NCBI GenBank assembly: GCA_030429365.1
Contig: JAUIEW010000025.1
Location: forward strand, 1-32,240
Reading direction: 5' to 3'
DNA: 32,240 nucleotides
From: Phycisphaerae bacterium
GTDB lineage: Bacteria; Planctomycetota; Phycisphaerae; UBA1845
Below are positions 11,228-22,586 of the stretch, piece after piece. The notes beneath the pieces were generated by a model. The model searched no databases. It had not been told where the DNA came from and saw only the letters and a list, made by a program, of their open reading frames with translations. A program made the position numbers and the translations under genes. The stretch's first letter is position 1; each line of letters starts with the position of its first letter.

Positions 11228-12400
11228 CTAGTTCTGATCTTCTGCCTCGACAAGCCAGAGCTGTCGCGGTGCACGCAACTGCGTATCCGTACCGTCAAGT
11301 GTGCGATCCGGTCCCAACGTTCCGGATTTCGTCGCAATATCGTCGTACGAATAGATGGCACCGTTCTCGCGATCCGCCACCATTCCCGTCCCATTCTTCG
11401 ACACCACAATGCCTTGAAGATTCGTCAGGGCGATGTTGACCGTCAGCGTGGTCGGCGTCACCGTTTCGTCCCCGATGGTCGAGACATCTGGCACAATCTT
11501 AATCGTATCGGTCGCGTCAACGATGTAGAGATTGTCCTCGTTGTCGACGAAGATGTCTTCATGCTTTTCCCAATCGTTGCTGTTGAGACGCTGAGCAAAC
11601 GGTGTTTCGCCATCGGCTTCGCCCGGATTGGTGAAGACGAGGATACGGTTGCGGTTCACCGAAATATCACCCTGGGTTTCGCTGACAAAGAGGTCGCCAT
11701 TCGGCGCGACACAGAGCGCATCTATTGTAATTTCTGTCGGGTCAAAAGGTGCGCGATCCGGCGGTCCAAACGTGCGATTCGGGGCGACCTCTTCGTCAAA
11801 CGCCACATTGGAGACGTTATCAAAAACCAGGATGCCGTCCTGCGCGTTGGCGTTGCCGACAAACAGGCGATCCGCGCTGGCGTCGTAGGCCATCGCGATC
11901 GGCGATTCCAGCCCGGTGTTGTTTCCTTCAACCACCAGGTCAGCCGTCGTGTTGTCGTCCAACGCGGTGGAATCATTATAACCAACGATGCCGCCGTTCT
12001 GCCGGCTGACGAGCAGGCGTCCCGATTCTGTCACGACAATTGAGCGCGGTTGGAATAGTGAGGTTGCAGCGCCTGCATCAAGCTTGCCATCCGGGGCAAT
12101 CTCACCATCAAGCGATTCTGCACCTGTGTAGAATGTGACAGAAGGTCCGGCATTGTTGGCGACAAACAGCATTGAAGCGTCGACGTCTCCACCGTCGTCG
12201 CCACCATTGGTGTTCATGTCACCATTGTCGCCGCCATCATTGCCTCCGTTGTCTCCGCCATTGTCACCTCCTCCATTGTCTCCCCCGCCATTGTCGCCAC
12301 CTCCATTGTTCCCGCCACCGCCCATCGGCGTGCAGCCCAGCCCCCCAGCCAGTCCCATCGCCATCAAAAGAGTTAAGAACTTCGCCTTGGATGTAAGCAT
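11228..12400 (-). CDS. Lipoprotein with beta-propeller-like repeats
   Basis: The 390-aa product starts at ATG 12400, which has AGGAG about 10 nt upstream. A longer in-frame start 78 nt upstream lacks any signal sequence. The signal peptide MLTSKAKFLTLLMAMGLAGG is followed by LGC, so Cys23 is probably lipidated. A linker of Gly, Asn and Asp (residues 27-72) leads to a globular domain with repeating units such as SMLFVANNAGPSVTFYTGAE, GRLLVSRQNGGIVGYND, DRLFVGNANAQDGILVFDN and DNLYIVDATDTIKIV. That rhythm is typical of NHL/SMP-30-like beta-propellers, which bind ligands or proteins at the cell surface. No catalytic residues could be assigned. The linker shares DMNTNG with the lipoprotein encoded just upstream. 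Confidence 0.75.
   Translation of the reverse strand: MLTSKAKFLTLLMAMGLAGGLGCTPMGGGGNNGGGDNGGGDNGGGDNGGDNGGNDGGDNGDMNTNGGDDGGDVDASMLFVANNAGPSVTFYTGAESLDGEIAPDGKLDAGAATSLFQPRSIVVTESGRLLVSRQNGGIVGYNDSTALDDNTTADLVVEGNNTGLESPIAMAYDASADRLFVGNANAQDGILVFDNVSNVAFDEEVAPNRTFGPPDRAPFDPTEITIDALCVAPNGDLFVSETQGDISVNRNRILVFTNPGEADGETPFAQRLNSNDWEKHEDIFVDNEDNLYIVDATDTIKIVPDVSTIGDETVTPTTLTVNIALTNLQGIVVSKNGTGMVADRENGAIYSYDDIATKSGTLGPDRTLDGTDTQLRAPRQLWLVEAEDQN
12185..12322 (-). repeat. Low-complexity Gly/Asn/Asp linker repeat
   Basis: This stretch encodes residues 27-72 of the propeller lipoprotein as imperfect NGGGD and NGGD units. In DNA it shows as reiterated CCATTGTC/CCGCC blocks on the plus strand. Such repeats are prone to slippage, but only in-frame unit changes would keep the protein intact. 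It is a spacer between lipid anchor and domain, not a CRISPR. Confidence 0.85.
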
Positions 12401-12580
12401 GGTGTGTCTCCTGATCGGTCGCAAACGTGGCGACCAGCCCCAAGTCCAGTCGGACCGCCCATCGGCCCAATGGTTCATTCGCGTGCTGCAAACAGATTGG
12501 TTTCAAATTGGAAAATCGGCCCTTACGTTGGTGCAATCAAGCTCATCGATATGAGTCGCATTGCCCAATCGTGATTGTTC

Positions 12581-12602
12581 AGAAAAGAAGCGCAGGCGCT
12601 TC
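12581..12602 (-). terminator. Intrinsic terminator downstream of the 180-aa lipoprotein gene
   Basis: On the minus strand the hairpin GAAGCGCCTGCGCTTC (12602-12587) is followed directly by TTTTCT. It lies 38 nt after the stop codon at 12641, so it closes that gene before the propeller lipoprotein gene. The two lipoproteins are therefore probably separate transcripts. Confidence 0.6.
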
Positions 12603-12640
12603 GTATGCGGTCATGTCGACACAAAGCGTCTGCGATCAGA

Positions 12641-13183
12641 TTATTCCTGGGGAACCTCAACGCTGGTTGCGAAGATACTCAGTGAACCGTTGTTGACGAC
12701 CAGATCGCAAATCGTTGGCGGACTCACCTCGGTGAAATAGACACGTCGTTCGCCGTCCTCGGTACCGAAACGTGCCCGAAAAGGACTGTTGCCGAAAATC
12801 AAACTCGTGCCTTCGACGCGCCAGTTGGCGATACGCGTTCCGGCGGCGAGCCAGACAAGTTCGTCGGTTTCCGTATCGAATTGCATGAGTTCGCCGTCGA
12901 TGTCGCGCACTTCGGTCGTTGTAAAATCGCTGTCGGGATCTTCGAACTTTGCAAGGTTTGCATTGTCATCGGCGTTATCGTCCATGTCTTCGCCATTGGT
13001 GTCTATATCCTGGCCGTTGGTGTTGACGTCCTCACCATTGGAATTCATGTCCGCACCGTTGGTGTTCATGTCCTGGGGGTCACCGTCGCCATCACCGTTA
13101 TTTCCGTTTGGAATCTGCATGTCGCAACCGGTTTGCAATGACAACAGAGACAGAAGCACAACCAACAACCTGAACCTTCGCAT
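12641..13183 (-). CDS. Lipoprotein with heptad Asp/Asn linker, function unknown
   Basis: The 180-aa product starts at ATG 13183 behind an excellent GGAGGA. The signal peptide MRRFRLLVVLLSLLSLQTGC has its lipobox at Cys20. Residues 38-72 are five degenerate 7-residue units of the form D-M/V/I-N-T-N-G-E. A C-terminal domain of about 100 residues follows (ELMQFDTETDELVWLAAGTR, GNSPFRARFGTEDGERRVYF). It looks all-beta but matches no family I know. An in-frame ATG at 13258 lies upstream, but it would bury the signal peptide. It resembles the downstream lipoprotein only in the linker. Confidence 0.7.
   Translation of the reverse strand: MRRFRLLVVLLSLLSLQTGCDMQIPNGNNGDGDGDPQDMNTNGADMNSNGEDVNTNGQDIDTNGEDMDDNADDNANLAKFEDPDSDFTTTEVRDIDGELMQFDTETDELVWLAAGTRIANWRVEGTSLIFGNSPFRARFGTEDGERRVYFTEVSPPTICDLVVNNGSLSIFATSVEVPQE
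12968..13072 (-). repeat. 21-bp tandem repeat coding for Asp/Asn heptads
   Basis: Five imperfect 21-bp units encode DMNTNGA, DMNSNGE, DVNTNGQ, DIDTNGE and DMDDNAD. Third-position variation between units shows the array is old and kept at the protein level. It is probably a surface spacer. Confidence 0.85.
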
Positions 13184-13388
13184 GGACTGATCCTCCAGTG
13201 ACCTTGTGAATCTACTGGCGCACTCCAACCCGGGATGCACCTCGCCGTTGGGCACCATGAGTAACGTTGATCAGGTCAGATCGCAACTTCCACAGCAAAA
13301 TTGAGGGCTGACGGGCAAGAAACGCGAATTGATGACCATGCGCGCGGAGTTTCCCCGCATGTGCAGTACAGGTCTCATTTATCGGTGA

Positions 13389-16742: not shown

Positions 16743-17708
16743 ATGTCAGTGACACAGATCGAATCTAATACACGTCAGGCCGAACCCTCTTCACGTTTGC
16801 AGCGCTTCCTCAATTGCTATTGGCTTCGGCCTGAGAATGCATTCTGGATGAGCCTTCGCAGTCAAGCACTTGAGTCGCATCCAATGACGGGTCCGAGCAT
16901 TGACTTGAGTTGCGGCGACGGCGTGTTCAGCTTTCTTCATGCCGGCGGAGATTTCTCTTGCGAATATGACGTTTTTCAAGAGGTAGGCCATCTGGACGAT
17001 GTGCGCGACGCGTTCGCTGACATGTTTGATCATGCCAGTGTTGGACATGAGCCTGAAATTACTAATCGACCAGACTCGAAGTTTGATGTCGGCACGGATC
17101 TGAAGCCCAACATGCTTCTTAAAGCGTGCCGTCTCGATTTCTACGAATGCCTCGTCGAACATGACCACAACCTCGAGATGCCTTTCGAGAATGACGCCTT
17201 CCAAACCGTTCACTGCAATTCTGCCTATTGGGTTCAGAACATCGACCAGTTCATGCGCGAGCTGCGCCGCATCACCCGCAGCGGCGGCCGCATTCTCCTT
17301 TCGGTCAAACTCGATGCGATGCGCGACTACACACTCAACTCCCATCGCGACAAGCTCGGTCAGCGCTGGCTCGACATCATCGGACGCGGTCGAATCGAAT
17401 CCTGGCCCAGCCTGTGCAGCGACGAAACATGGAAGCAGCGATTCAAGTCTGCTGGTCTGGACATCGTCTCGCGTACGCCGTTCATCACCGCGACCCACGC
17501 GCACATCTGGGACATCGGCCTGCGTCCCATCGCCCCGCTGCTCGTCCGGATGGCCAATGCCTTGGAAGAGCACACGCGGCAGGAAATAAAGTCAGATTGG
17601 ATCGACCTGCTCTCCGAATTGTTGCTCCCACTCCACGATGCAAGCTTCAACCTCGCACCGCAAAAGCAGGAACCGGCGGAAATTCTCTACGAATTGACCC
17701 CAAATTAG
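16743..17708 (+). CDS. SAM-dependent methyltransferase
   Basis: The 321-aa product is a class I methyltransferase. It has motif I SIDLSCGDGVFSF (residues 52-64), an acidic segment DVGTDLKPNMLLKA (115-128) and the motif IV/post-IV region MPFENDAFQTVHCNSAYWVQ (146-165). The 'FMRELRRITRSGGRILLSV' helix-strand (170-188) resembles the Methyltransf_11/ubiE-like family. The region between motif I and motif II is longer than usual (residues 65-115). The substrate is unknown; position at the head of a sugar-acid cluster suggests a surface glycan or lipid-linked sugar. The ATG at 16743 is preceded only by a weak GGGAAAA. The next gene follows after 129 nt, which is loose compared with the tight overlaps further on. 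Confidence 0.8.
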   Translation: MSVTQIESNTRQAEPSSRLQRFLNCYWLRPENAFWMSLRSQALESHPMTGPSIDLSCGDGVFSFLHAGGDFSCEYDVFQEVGHLDDVRDAFADMFDHASVGHEPEITNRPDSKFDVGTDLKPNMLLKACRLDFYECLVEHDHNLEMPFENDAFQTVHCNSAYWVQNIDQFMRELRRITRSGGRILLSVKLDAMRDYTLNSHRDKLGQRWLDIIGRGRIESWPSLCSDETWKQRFKSAGLDIVSRTPFITATHAHIWDIGLRPIAPLLVRMANALEEHTRQEIKSDWIDLLSELLLPLHDASFNLAPQKQEPAEILYELTPN

Positions 17709-17837: not shown

Positions 17838-18824
17838 ATGGACGGTAGATTGGCAATGCATCCTCACGGAATCATGTTCCACCATTTTCACGGCGGCGCC
17901 CATGCGCCAAGCCAGGGTTCGATTGACGCTCAAGCGATGCGCGATCTGATCCAACACGTCGGCGTCGAACGAATCATCTCTGCTGACGAATGGCTCTGCC
18001 GCGCCGAGAGCGACAGCCTTGAACCTCAGGATGTATGCCTGACTTTCGACGACGCCCTTCGCTGCCAACTCGACATCGCCAAGCCGGTCCTGGACGAACT
18101 GGGGTTGACCGGTTTCTGGTTTGTGCACACGTCGATGCTGGAGGGCGAATACTCGCGGTTGGAAGTCTACCGTCAATTCCGCGAAACGTGCTTCGATTCA
18201 CTGATTCAGTTCTACAGCGCGTTTGAGGAACAAGCCCGCAATGCTGTCGGGTGCCAGACCGTTTCCAACGCGCTCGATCGTCTCGACATTGGAACGTACC
18301 TCGCCGAGTATCCATTCTACACACCGGCTGACCGGCGATTCCGTTTCATTCGAAACCAGATTCTCGGCGAAGAACGCTACACGAGAATCATGGACGACAT
18401 GATCGGCATGTTCGGGCAATCCATCGAAGCACTCGCAAGAGACCTTTGGATCAACGCGGAAGACATTCGCAACCTGTCCGACGCAGGTCATGTCATTGGC
18501 CTGCATTCGCACACGCATCCGGTCGCGATCGGCGAACTACCGCCCGATCGCCAGAAATGGGAATACAAGACGAACGCACAGAAGCTCGAAAATATCATCG
18601 GCAGTGCGCCAAGGGTAATGGCTCACCCGTGCAATTCCTACACACATGCAACGCTCGATGTCTTGCGCGAGTTGGGAATTGCGTTCGGGTTCCGCGCCAA
18701 CATGGTCGAGGGCAATTGGTCGCCTTTGGAATGCCCCCGTGAAGATCACAGTAACATCATCAGAGAAATGCAGGCATGCGAATCACCGTCTTCACCGGCA
18801 ACCAGCCTCGCCACGTCGCGTTGA
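17838..18824 (+). CDS. Polysaccharide deacetylase-like protein
   Basis: The 328-aa product belongs to the NodB-type carbohydrate esterase 4 superfamily. It has the metal and catalytic motif VCLTFDDA (residues 66-73), GLHSHTHP (221-228, the HxxxH metal ligands) and a C-terminal MAHPCNSYTHATLDVLRE (261-278). A large insert at about 105-205 separates the first two motifs. This form is often encoded in surface polysaccharide and sialic-acid-like loci, where it would remove N-acetyl groups. It has no signal peptide, so it probably acts on a cytoplasmic sugar intermediate. A TAA stands directly before the ATG at 17838; ATGs at 17856 or 17874 are also possible. The last 16 codons overlap the start of the formyltransferase gene, and the C-terminal tail looks non-conserved. 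Confidence 0.8.
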   Translation: MDGRLAMHPHGIMFHHFHGGAHAPSQGSIDAQAMRDLIQHVGVERIISADEWLCRAESDSLEPQDVCLTFDDALRCQLDIAKPVLDELGLTGFWFVHTSMLEGEYSRLEVYRQFRETCFDSLIQFYSAFEEQARNAVGCQTVSNALDRLDIGTYLAEYPFYTPADRRFRFIRNQILGEERYTRIMDDMIGMFGQSIEALARDLWINAEDIRNLSDAGHVIGLHSHTHPVAIGELPPDRQKWEYKTNAQKLENIIGSAPRVMAHPCNSYTHATLDVLRELGIAFGFRANMVEGNWSPLECPREDHSNIIREMQACESPSSPATSLATSR

Positions 18825-19570
18825 TTGAAGCGCTGGCCGACGTCGCCGACGAAGTCTTCGCGATTCAGGAATGCACGACGATCTTCCCAGGTCAGGTGAA
18901 TGACTTCTTTCGCAAGTCGGACACGATGCAGCGTTATTTTCGGCGTGTGCAGTCGGCAGAGCAATTGGTCTTTGGTCAACCAAGATTCGTACCGCCCCAT
19001 GCGAGACAATTGGCGCTTCGCATGGGGGACCTGTCGCAGACATCGCCAAGTGTGTTGGCTCCAGCGCTTCAGTCGGATGTCTATGTGGTGTTTGGGGCGA
19101 GTTACATCAAGGGGCCCCTGTGCGACCACCTGGTGGCCCACCGAGCGGTGAACATTCACATGGGTGTGTCGCCCCATTACCGCGGGAGTTCGACAAACTT
19201 CTGGGCGATGTACGATGACGCACCGCAGTATGTTGGCGCGACGATACACCGGCTGACGGCTGGTCTGGATTCGGGCCCGATCATCTGCCATTCGTTTCCG
19301 CGCGCGGAAGCGGCAGATCCGTTTGTCGTCGGCATGCAAGCCGTCCAGTCGGCCCATCGCGCGGTCGTGGGCATGTTGCAATCGAACGAGTTACTGCGCG
19401 TCGATCCGGTCGCGCAGAATCGTTCTCTGGAACGGCGCTATTCGCGCAACGCTGACTTCACGGACGACGTCGCGGCAGAGTACCTCGCGCGCATACCGAC
19501 GGCAGCAGACATGGAAAAGGCTCTAACCGAACGGACGTTTGATGGCATGATTCGTCCATTCGTTGCATGA
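18776..19570 (+). CDS. Formyltransferase-like protein (Fmt/sugar N-formyltransferase fold)
   Basis: The 264-aa product has the formyltransferase core with N126, H128 and D165 as the likely catalytic triad: AVNIHMGVSPHYRGSST and then GATIHRLTAGLDSGPII. N-IH....PHYRG and LD-GPII are the signature of methionyl-tRNA formyltransferase and of sugar N-formyltransferases that use 10-formyltetrahydrofolate. The usual C-terminal tRNA-binding domain of Fmt is absent, and the gene sits in a sugar cluster. A sugar amine is thus a more likely acceptor than Met-tRNA; this is inference. It starts inside the deacetylase gene (49-nt overlap), and its stop overlaps the next start as ATGA. Confidence 0.8.
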   Translation: MRITVFTGNQPRHVALIEALADVADEVFAIQECTTIFPGQVNDFFRKSDTMQRYFRRVQSAEQLVFGQPRFVPPHARQLALRMGDLSQTSPSVLAPALQSDVYVVFGASYIKGPLCDHLVAHRAVNIHMGVSPHYRGSSTNFWAMYDDAPQYVGATIHRLTAGLDSGPIICHSFPRAEAADPFVVGMQAVQSAHRAVVGMLQSNELLRVDPVAQNRSLERRYSRNADFTDDVAAEYLARIPTAADMEKALTERTFDGMIRPFVA

Positions 19571-21333
19571 GGCAAAGAGGAATTGACGCATTGAATACCG
19601 TATCGCATCGAACATTGTTCGCCATTCTCGCCCGCGGCGGCAGCAAGCGCCTGCCGGACAAGAACCTGCTTGAGATCGGCGGTGTTTCGTTGTTGGGTCG
19701 AGCGATCCAATGCGCCCGCGCCTGCGCCCACCGATTGCCAAACGACTGCACCGTCGTCGTTAACACCGACGCTGACGACATTGCCGAAGAGGCCAGACAT
19801 TGGGGCGCGGAAGTTCCTTTCATGCGCAGCGCCGAACTCGCCGGTGACACAACCCCGTCCATCGCTCCACTTCGCCATCTAGTCAATTGGTATGCCGACA
19901 AAGGCAAAACGTTTTCAGAAGTTGTCTTGCTTCAACCAACGTCGCCATTTCGATTGCCAGACGATGTCCTAAGCTGCATCATGCGGTTTCGCGAGAATCC
20001 TGACGCGACGTGTGTGAGCGTTTTGAGTGATCCAGACAACATCAGCAAATGGCGATACGAATCGCGCGACGACTGGCTTCACGCACCTTGCGAGAAGTCA
20101 TCGCAATCAAAGGATGCTTCGACCGTCGCGCTAAACGGCGCGGTGTATGCTTGTTCGCCGCGATGGATTCAGGAGAACGAAAAACTGTGTGTTGCCGGGC
20201 GATCAATGGGAGTCGCCATGCCCTCCCAGCGATCCATCGACATCGACACCGCTGACGATCTCGCACACGCCAGAGAATTTCACGCATCAACCGTCCCGTG
20301 GTCATCCGACCGCTGTTTTGTGATTGCGGAGGCGGGCGTCAATCACAACGGTTGCATCGAAACCGCCCGCAGGCTCGTCGAGGAAGCGGCCCGCGCCGGT
20401 GCCGACGCGATCAAGTTCCAGACGTTCTCTGCCGAACGGTTGGCCACTCGAAATGCCCCAAAAGCCGACTACCAAAAGCACAACGCCCCCGAGGACGAAT
20501 CGCAATTTGAAATGCTCCAGCGTCTGGAGCTCTCACCTGACGAACATCGCGCCCTGATTGAGCATTGCGATGCGAACAACATTCGCTTTCTGTCATCTGC
20601 CTTCTCCAATGAAGACATCGATCTTCTCGACGAGTTGGATGTGTCGGCGATCAAGCTCGGCAGCGCGGAGATTACCAATCACCCGTTGTTGGCGCACGCA
20701 GCCAGCACGCTCCGCCCGATCATTCTCTCGACGGGCTGCAGTTGGTTGGACGAAGTGGAATCCGCGGTTCGCGTCTTGCGGGAAAATGGATGCACCGACC
20801 TCGCCTTGTTGCATTGCGTCAGCGCCTATCCCGCCGCCTGTAAAGACGTCAACTTGCGGGCGATGACCACCCTGGCAGGTGCGACCGGCGTGCCGATCGG
20901 ATTCAGCGACCACACCGAAGGCATTGCGCTTGCGGGTGCGGCGGTCGCGATGGGCGCTCGTATCATCGAGAAACACTTCACACTCGATCGGACTGCGGAT
21001 GGACCAGATCACCGTGCATCGCTTGAGCCGGCTTCACTCAGATCCATGATCGAGTCGATTCGCGCGATTGAATCGGCCATGGGCGACGGCATCAAGCGCC
21101 CTACCGATGCCGAGATGAACACACGACAGGTGGCCCGACGAAGCCTTGTTGCGGTGCAGGACCTTGACGTTGGCACGGTCCTGGAACCCAGGCATCTCGC
21201 AGCGAGACGCCCCGGCACCGCGATACCCCCGTCAGAACTCAAGCGTGTGCTTGGGCAGATCATTGTCAAAAACGTTCGATTAGACGAACCATTGACCTGG
21301 GACCACTTTGCCCCTGCGGAGGCCGCGTCGTGA
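19567..21333 (+). CDS. Fused CMP-nonulosonate cytidylyltransferase and nonulosonate synthase (NeuA-NeuB)
   Basis: A single 588-aa frame joins two enzymes. Residues 15-240 are a NeuA-type cytidylyltransferase: ARGGSKRLPDKN at 22-33, LLQPTSPFRLPDDV at 121-134 and SIDIDTADDL at 223-232. Residues 249-505 are a NeuB-type synthase that condenses PEP with an N-acetylhexosamine: FVIAEAGVNHNG at 251-262, AIKFQTF at 281-287, GFSDHTEG at 445-452 and EKHFTLDR at 468-475. A SAF (antifreeze-like) domain ends the protein at about 523-582. NeuA activates the acid that NeuB makes, so the fusion joins two consecutive steps. The ATG overlaps the previous stop; a TTG at 19591 with AGAGGA upstream is an alternative start. 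The substrate (ManNAc or a 6-deoxy di-N-acetyl sugar) cannot be decided. Confidence 0.93.
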   Translation: MRQRGIDALNTVSHRTLFAILARGGSKRLPDKNLLEIGGVSLLGRAIQCARACAHRLPNDCTVVVNTDADDIAEEARHWGAEVPFMRSAELAGDTTPSIAPLRHLVNWYADKGKTFSEVVLLQPTSPFRLPDDVLSCIMRFRENPDATCVSVLSDPDNISKWRYESRDDWLHAPCEKSSQSKDASTVALNGAVYACSPRWIQENEKLCVAGRSMGVAMPSQRSIDIDTADDLAHAREFHASTVPWSSDRCFVIAEAGVNHNGCIETARRLVEEAARAGADAIKFQTFSAERLATRNAPKADYQKHNAPEDESQFEMLQRLELSPDEHRALIEHCDANNIRFLSSAFSNEDIDLLDELDVSAIKLGSAEITNHPLLAHAASTLRPIILSTGCSWLDEVESAVRVLRENGCTDLALLHCVSAYPAACKDVNLRAMTTLAGATGVPIGFSDHTEGIALAGAAVAMGARIIEKHFTLDRTADGPDHRASLEPASLRSMIESIRAIESAMGDGIKRPTDAEMNTRQVARRSLVAVQDLDVGTVLEPRHLAARRPGTAIPPSELKRVLGQIIVKNVRLDEPLTWDHFAPAEAAS

Positions 21334-22586
21334 GACAAATAACCTTGGTTACGACATCACGCAGCGAATGGGGCATCCAGCGACCGATCGCGGAAGCTCT
21401 CAGGGACCGTGACGATGTCGCCCTCAGTATTGTGGCAGGCGGCATGCACCTTTCCAAGGTGTTTGGAACGACGGTCACAGACATCCAGGCAGATGGATTC
21501 GAGGTTTCGGCGGGACTCGCCTACTTGCCGCCGGGGGACACTGAACTCGACGTTGCCCATGGCATGAGCCAAGGTGTCACTTCGTTCGCCAGGTGTTTCG
21601 CAGGCGCCCGTCCAGATCTGATCAGCGTTCTGGGCGACCGATACGACATGTTCCCCGCGGTCATTGCAGCGCTCCCATTCGGTATCCCTATTGCGCACAT
21701 TCACGGCGGCGAACGAACTGAAGGGGCGTTCGATGACAGCATTCGTCACGCAATCACCAAGATGAGCCACATTCATCTTACATCGACGCGTGAGTATGCC
21801 GATCGCGTGATCCAGATGGGCGAATCACCAGAGAATGTCCATTGTGTCGGAGCGCCCGGGCTGGACGACATCGCTTCATACACCCCGATTGATAATGCCA
21901 CACTTCGCGAGACGTACGGCTTTGAAACCGGAAAGACAAACGTACTTGTCATCTACCATCCCGAGACAAGAGCCCATACCTATCGAACGCCCGCTGAATC
22001 CATGGCCGTCTTGCTCGGTGCGGTCGAAGAATCCTTGGGTGACAACGCCAACATTGTCATAATCTCACCGAACGCGGACACAGGCTTTGGCGGCATCAAT
22101 GCCGTCATCGAAAACTACTGCGAAGAGCATGCCCGGGCGCTTCATTTTCAAACGATCCCGCGGCGGGCATTTCTTTCTCTGATGGACTCAGCGACGCTGA
22201 TGATCGGCAACAGTTCTGCCGGCATCATCGAAGCGCCCAGTTTCAAAACACCTGCAATCAATGTGGGAACGAGGCAGGCTGGGCGCATCCGCGCAGCCAA
22301 CGTAATCGACACCGAGGCGGATCCAATCGCGATTGGCCGCGCGATCAAACGTGCGCAGTCAGCCGAATTTCTCGCGTCATTGCGTGATTTGGAAAATCCA
22401 TACGGAGACGGTCAAAGCGCCGAACGCATCGCCGATATTCTCGCGACAACACCCATCACGCCTCAACTGCTCGCCAAGCAATTCGTTGATCAACCAGATT
22501 GCTCGCCCCACAACTTGGCAAGTTCAACCAGCACACGGACAGCCGACTCCATTTCTTCCAGGCACGCCCACTCTTTCGGCGAGTGA
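21330..22586 (+). CDS. neuC: UDP-N-acetylglucosamine 2-epimerase (hydrolysing), NeuC/LegG family
   Basis: NeuC releases UDP from UDP-GlcNAc with inversion at C2 to give ManNAc, the NeuB substrate; LegG does the same on a di-N-acetyl sugar. The 418-aa product has LGDRYDMF at 101-108, AHIHGGERTEGAFDDSIRH at 122-140, IYHPETRAHTYRTP near 208-221, IGNSSAGIIEAPSF at 292-305 and NVGTRQAGRIRAANVI at 311-326. The start is GTG at 21330, overlapping the neuA-neuB stop (GTGA). The family normally ends near 'GDG.SAERI..IL' (residues 359-371). The last 32 codons overlap the 3' end of pepT on the other strand and look like antisense reading (S/T/H-rich), so the tail is probably a recent extension. Confidence 0.92.
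   Translation: MRQITLVTTSRSEWGIQRPIAEALRDRDDVALSIVAGGMHLSKVFGTTVTDIQADGFEVSAGLAYLPPGDTELDVAHGMSQGVTSFARCFAGARPDLISVLGDRYDMFPAVIAALPFGIPIAHIHGGERTEGAFDDSIRHAITKMSHIHLTSTREYADRVIQMGESPENVHCVGAPGLDDIASYTPIDNATLRETYGFETGKTNVLVIYHPETRAHTYRTPAESMAVLLGAVEESLGDNANIVIISPNADTGFGGINAVIENYCEEHARALHFQTIPRRAFLSLMDSATLMIGNSSAGIIEAPSFKTPAINVGTRQAGRIRAANVIDTEADPIAIGRAIKRAQSAEFLASLRDLENPYGDGQSAERIADILATTPITPQLLAKQFVDQPDCSPHNLASSTSTRTADSISSRHAHSFGE

Follow-up and report, generated by a model that had tools for sequence, protein, structure and literature searches.

In CMP-Neu5Ac synthetases an arginine pairs with the carboxylate of the acid (PMC2901514, PMC6580227), and an Arg165-Gln166 motif in Neisseria meningitidis numbering both binds this carboxylate and holds the quaternary structure together (PMC2901514). 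Exchange of these residues is costly, as the N. meningitidis R165A variant has zero activity and that of Q166A is strongly reduced (PMC2901514). Our search of the open-licence literature found no paper on a natural fusion of such a cytidylyltransferase (NeuA) with a nonulosonate synthase (NeuB), and only a NeuB-phosphatase fusion from Leptospira. Here we analyse a 32,240-nucleotide stretch of contig JAUIEW010000025.1 from a Phycisphaerae bacterium (the window), which we think encodes a genuine NeuA-NeuB fusion enzyme serving a three-step CMP-nonulosonate pathway run from two genes, a reading to which we assign a probability of roughly 0.6.

The fusion gene (19567-21333, forward strand) is a single open frame that runs from ATG to stop through 588 aa with zero internal stops. 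Pfam places CTP_transf_3 at residues 20-145 (E 1.8e-12), NeuB at 270-510 (E 1.6e-94) and SAF at 524-581 (E 9.2e-10), which bears out the domains, the domain order and the uninterrupted fusion described in the initial annotation; its point that both halves are made in equal amounts follows from their being one polypeptide, whereas the channelling that it also raised is unsupported by the present evidence. The NeuA motifs end with DIDTADDL (225-232) and those of NeuB begin with IAEAGVNH (253-260); across the junction of about 20 residues that separates the two, all 12 aligned homologues are free of stop codons. An AlphaFold2 model of the fusion, built with 29 natural fusions, contains both folds with a mean pLDDT of 91 and a pTM of 0.86. 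Both halves are under purifying selection, weaker in NeuA (dN/dS 0.10-0.30 vs 0.05-0.12 in NeuB, so that NeuA evolves ~1 to 4 times faster), ratios that are rough because dS is saturated.

The synthase half retains all of the catalytic residues examined. It comprises a TIM barrel and a C-terminal SAF domain with the catalytic residues in place, its residues 242-582 match the fold of N. meningitidis NeuB (NmNeuB; 1xuu/2wqp) with Z 37, and the counterparts of NmNeuB E25, K53, K129, E134, H215, E234, H236, D247 and R314, whose roles we take to be those described for that enzyme, are all conserved. The NCBIfam model NeuB_NnaB (TIGR03569, N-acetylneuraminate synthase) scores 437.5 bits, over its curated equivalog cut-off of 399.65, and the pseudaminic acid synthase model PseI reaches 288.2, below its cut-off of 340.25.

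Table 1. Features of the fusion gene and its probable operon in the window
Feature	Coordinates	Strand	Basis
Methyltransferase (Methyltransf_23), first gene of probable operon	16743..17708	+	Pfam; conserved neighbour in G001-G004
Polysaccharide deacetylase (CE4/NodB-type; TFDD, HSHTH motifs)	17838..18824	+	Pfam PF01522 1.4e-15; conserved in genus
Formyltransferase, sugar N-formyltransferase-like	18776..19570	+	Pfam PF00551 1.8e-8; conserved in genus
NeuA half (cytidylyltransferase; model fold residues ~12-242)	19567..20277	+	Pfam, alignment, AlphaFold2 model; lacks Arg165/Gln166
Junction (residues ~238-249), no separate start codon	20278..20313	+	Alignment of homologues
NeuB half and C-terminal SAF domain	20314..21333	+	Pfam, NCBIfam, fold match; catalytic residues E255, K283, K363, E368, H449, H470, R548 conserved
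NeuC, hydrolysing UDP-GlcNAc 2-epimerase family	21330..22586	+	TIGR03568 415.6 bits vs cut-off 235.9

The five genes follow one another in the order of Table 1 with overlapping ends: the fusion gene shares 4 bases with the preceding formyltransferase and 4 with the following neuC, and the deacetylase and formyltransferase genes overlap by 49. The same arrangement, flanking genes included, recurs in four other genomes: G001, G002, G004 and, as far as the contig end, G003. NeuC is the only copy over its cut-off in the genome, and together with a NeuA-NeuB fusion it would complete a route from UDP-GlcNAc to CMP-Neu5Ac. In the pathway that we propose, NeuC would make ManNAc from UDP-GlcNAc, NeuB+SAF at the C-terminus would form a Neu5Ac-type acid by condensing this ManNAc with phosphoenolpyruvate, and the NeuA half at the N-terminus would use CTP to activate the acid. 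We infer which sugar is made, most simply one of the Neu5Ac type, that each half is active and that the product ends up on a glycan. Among the CTP_transf_3 matches in the genome (~95% complete; many of those compared with it are drafts) no other NeuA-like partner for NeuB was found, the remaining matches being a strong one on C107 (182 bits), which we read as KdsB, and a GlmU-like one on C329.

No glycosyltransferase is present in the operon. Flagellar genes (flgF/G/A-like and a FliA-like sigma factor, read from ORF sequences) flank it, and a Maf-type flagellin glycosyltransferase is encoded elsewhere in the genome; since housekeeping genes flank the operon too, we do not claim flagellin as the glycan acceptor. 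The Maf/PseD-type gene (G000:C3:2541-6082, L194) is directly followed by one for a SPASM radical SAM protein. Elsewhere in the window, positions 11228-13258 encode two adjoining putative lipoproteins with low-complexity repeats of the GGGDN and DMNTNG type after the signal region.

The cytidylyltransferase half lacks one motif of the known enzymes. Its residues 12-242 match CMP-Neu5Ac synthetases with Z 24-27 (V. cholerae 6ifd, 26.8; N. meningitidis NmCSS 1eyr, 26.2), and R12, S15, K16, K21, N22, R71, Q104-P-T-S, N175, Y179, D209 and D211 (N. meningitidis numbering) are conserved in its clade. The cytidylyltransferase fold, the CTP P-loop and the Mg aspartates (R12, K16, K21, N22, D209, D211) are those of a CMP-N-acetylneuraminate synthetase (NeuA), and the pseudaminic cytidylyltransferase model PseF, at 91.3, stays below its cut-off of 205.7. 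The Arg165-Gln166 motif, by contrast, is missing from each of the five species in the genus. Outside the clade 110 of 114 homologues retain Gln166, vs none of the seven members inside it, and 99 of the 114 retain Arg165; inside the clade six of seven have lost Arg165, only G044 having an arginine there. The five species of the genus carry Q, Q, C, G and F at the Arg165 position in a shortened loop, whose residues 178-181 are poorly ordered in the AlphaFold2 model (pLDDT under 50). The initial claim of intact signature motifs in both halves thus holds for the motifs that it quoted, for the NeuB catalytic residues and for the CTP- and Mg-binding residues of NeuA, but not for this pair. Unfused NeuA proteins encoded beside neuB in G032, G036 and G039 (L006, L007, L011) also depart from the usual Arg165-Gln166 pattern and form a branch of their own.

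With Arg165 and Gln166 missing, the NeuA half would therefore either bind the carboxylate of the acid differently or be impaired. The CMP-transfer step is uncertain because the CTP and Mg residues are retained without this pair: judged from these residues, CMP transfer is likely, though it may be altered or lost. We tentatively propose that the fused NeuA of this genus and of the sister genus, having given up the arginine and glutamine on which related proteins rely, either holds the nonulosonic acid, perhaps a modified one, in a new way or has become a partner of the synthase that binds CTP without being catalytic.

How widespread are such fusions? The frame turned up in many genomes in a search of the family and in many others in a search of the phylum, which gene content suggests to be Planctomycetota. 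Domain models applied to the loci yielded about 38 distinct NeuA-NeuB fusions, each counted as a separate fused entry of the NeuA tree, which come from the family, the phylum, one Anaeromyxobacter MAG and one Thermoplasmata MAG; Pfam matched both CTP_transf_3 and NeuB in 29 of 29 that were aligned. The two genes are normally separate, as first annotated, in general but not within this family and phylum, where fusion is common; the fusion is thus already common, as the annotation had allowed it might be, but not already characterised, as far as reports could be found. Every fusion runs NeuA-NeuB. The order opposite to that of the pathway, pointed out in the initial annotation, needs no functional reason, since unfused neighbouring genes, their ends often abutting or overlapping, run neuA-neuB in 35 cases vs neuB-neuA in 3, and the seemingly reversed order of the fusion is the inherited gene order. 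In a Verrucomicrobiaceae MAG (L022 5707-7719) NeuA and NeuB occupy the same frame with one stop codon alone between them. In our reading, the fusion arose through loss of the stop between adjacent, co-oriented neuA and neuB genes, and did so more than once.

Fused and unfused NeuA-NeuB pairs interleave on the trees of both domains. The NeuB tree requires 15 fused/unfused changes, at least 9 of them forced by starred branches, and the NeuA tree 11, at least 5 of them forced; these counts rule out a single origin of all fusions, and joins, perhaps also splits, have therefore recurred. At a minimum, two or three separate joining events produced the fusions. The window's version (type 1) is shared with further genomes from its phylum and with an Anaeromyxobacter MAG, whose fusion (L021) keeps RRQ. 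On the NeuA tree the window's type clusters with the Anaeromyxobacter fusion and others of the phylum, and this tree, taken alone, suggests that all 17 type-1 fusions go back to one event (93/93, although a single unfused row, from Armatimonadota, falls within the group). Most other members of the window's family carry fusions of another type on the same tree. In the cytidylyltransferase half of this second type (L104, L020, L107, L116, L105, L108, L118, L120, L017) the RRQ motif is kept, but Asn22 is often replaced by Cys and Gln104/Thr106 by Tyr/Asn, which suggests another sugar or nucleotide specificity.

Several other readings of the locus have to be weighed. The initial annotation had named a sequencing error hiding a stop or frameshift at residues 235-250 as a threat to the fusion. 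Nothing was found in favour of an assembly or sequencing artefact of this kind; unfused neighbours in the same order do exist, and in L022 a single in-frame stop lies between the two. We give an artefact practically no credence: the identical uninterrupted frame recurs in ~30 other genomes and in all five of the genus, each assembled separately (in G003 the contig ends within NeuB), and its presence in all five excludes a sequencing error. It is also highly improbable that a separate NeuB is produced in addition to the fusion by internal translation initiation. The nearest in-frame ATG upstream of the junction is that of Met218, a methionine conserved in the genus, but it falls inside the last strand region of NeuA, no clear ribosome-binding site is apparent by eye, and the junction of the window protein itself holds no start codon for a cleanly separate NeuB.

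Two alternatives to a conventional Neu5Ac pathway deserve more weight, although we regard both as unlikely. One is that the NeuA half no longer makes a CMP-sugar and is retained because it binds CTP for the synthase or supports its structure, as in nucleotide sensing or dimer support, the acid being activated by another cytidylyltransferase or used free. The vanished motif, the short, disordered loop with unrelated residues in each species, the inactive or nearly inactive R165A and Q166A mutants (PMC2901514) and the faster evolution of NeuA all fit this reading; yet the CTP and metal residues and the pocket residues S82, Q104 and Y179 do not vary among the seven clade members, purifying selection still acts on a domain whose motif was already missing at the base of g1+g38, and G000 yielded no dedicated second NeuA, though the PseF of its second nonulosonate cluster may lie on a missing stretch. 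The other is that the enzyme acts on legionaminic acid rather than Neu5Ac, as a LegI/LegF fusion working with a LegG-type epimerase. The models used do not separate NeuB from LegI or NeuC from LegG, and contig C50 encodes a LegB-like dehydratase (403 bits, cut-off 475) next to a sugar nucleotidyltransferase, which makes legionaminic acid a possible product; against this, LegB, LegC and LegH are absent from the operon, the best LegC match in the genome has 272 bits vs a cut-off of 420, none stands beside the LegB-like gene, and LegB and LegC yield only matches under their cut-offs in the cluster and the ~95% complete genome. We therefore retain the Neu5Ac-type fusion as the preferred reading.

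A second, pseudaminate-type nonulosonate cluster is present in G001 (C129, L175) and partly in G000 (C273, L174). It encodes a PseB-like dehydratase just under the cut-off, PseC, PseG, two different NeuB-family synthases, several methyltransferases and a formyltransferase, and in G001 also a PseF-like protein and a PIG-L deacetylase.

As for modification of the product, N-formylation of legionaminic acid is known from Halorubrum sp. PV6, which has a formyltransferase gene in its Leg cluster (PMC6137143). The best NCBIfam match of the formyltransferase in the window is to dTDP-4-amino-4,6-dideoxyglucose formyltransferase, weak and below cut-off, and by analogy we would guess that it and the CE4 deacetylase exchange N-acetyl for N-formyl, giving an acid with an N-formyl group. 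These two genes do not explain the loss of the Arg165-Gln166 motif, because no homologues turned up next to the G045 fusion, in which the motif has been lost as well.

That nature has repeatedly joined the final two steps on the way to CMP-sialic acids offers ready-made bifunctional enzymes for making these compounds, and the fusion described here is a clean natural test of whether Arg165 and Gln166 are indispensable in CMP-nonulosonate synthetases. With the N. meningitidis and V. cholerae CMP-Neu5Ac synthetases (1eyr, 6ifd) its NeuA half shares the fold, the P-loop, the CTP- and Mg-binding residues and several residues of the sugar pocket; it differs in lacking Arg165/Gln166, in having a shortened loop ahead of the NGA(I/V)Y strand and in being fused to NeuB. 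N. meningitidis NeuB/SiaC (1xuu, 2wqp) has the same fold across the whole NeuB+SAF half and all checked catalytic and metal residues, but is a stand-alone protein, whereas the window NeuB carries an N-terminal NeuA domain. The unfused neuA-neuB pairs of Chloroflexota, Clostridium, Methanolobus and Verrucomicrobia resemble the fusion in gene order and homologous domains and have abutting or overlapping ends, but encode separate polypeptides. In the Leptospira protein (PMC3438082) a nonulosonate synthase is likewise naturally fused to a neighbouring enzyme of the pathway, its partner being a C-terminal phosphatase, in contrast to the N-terminal cytidylyltransferase of the window fusion.
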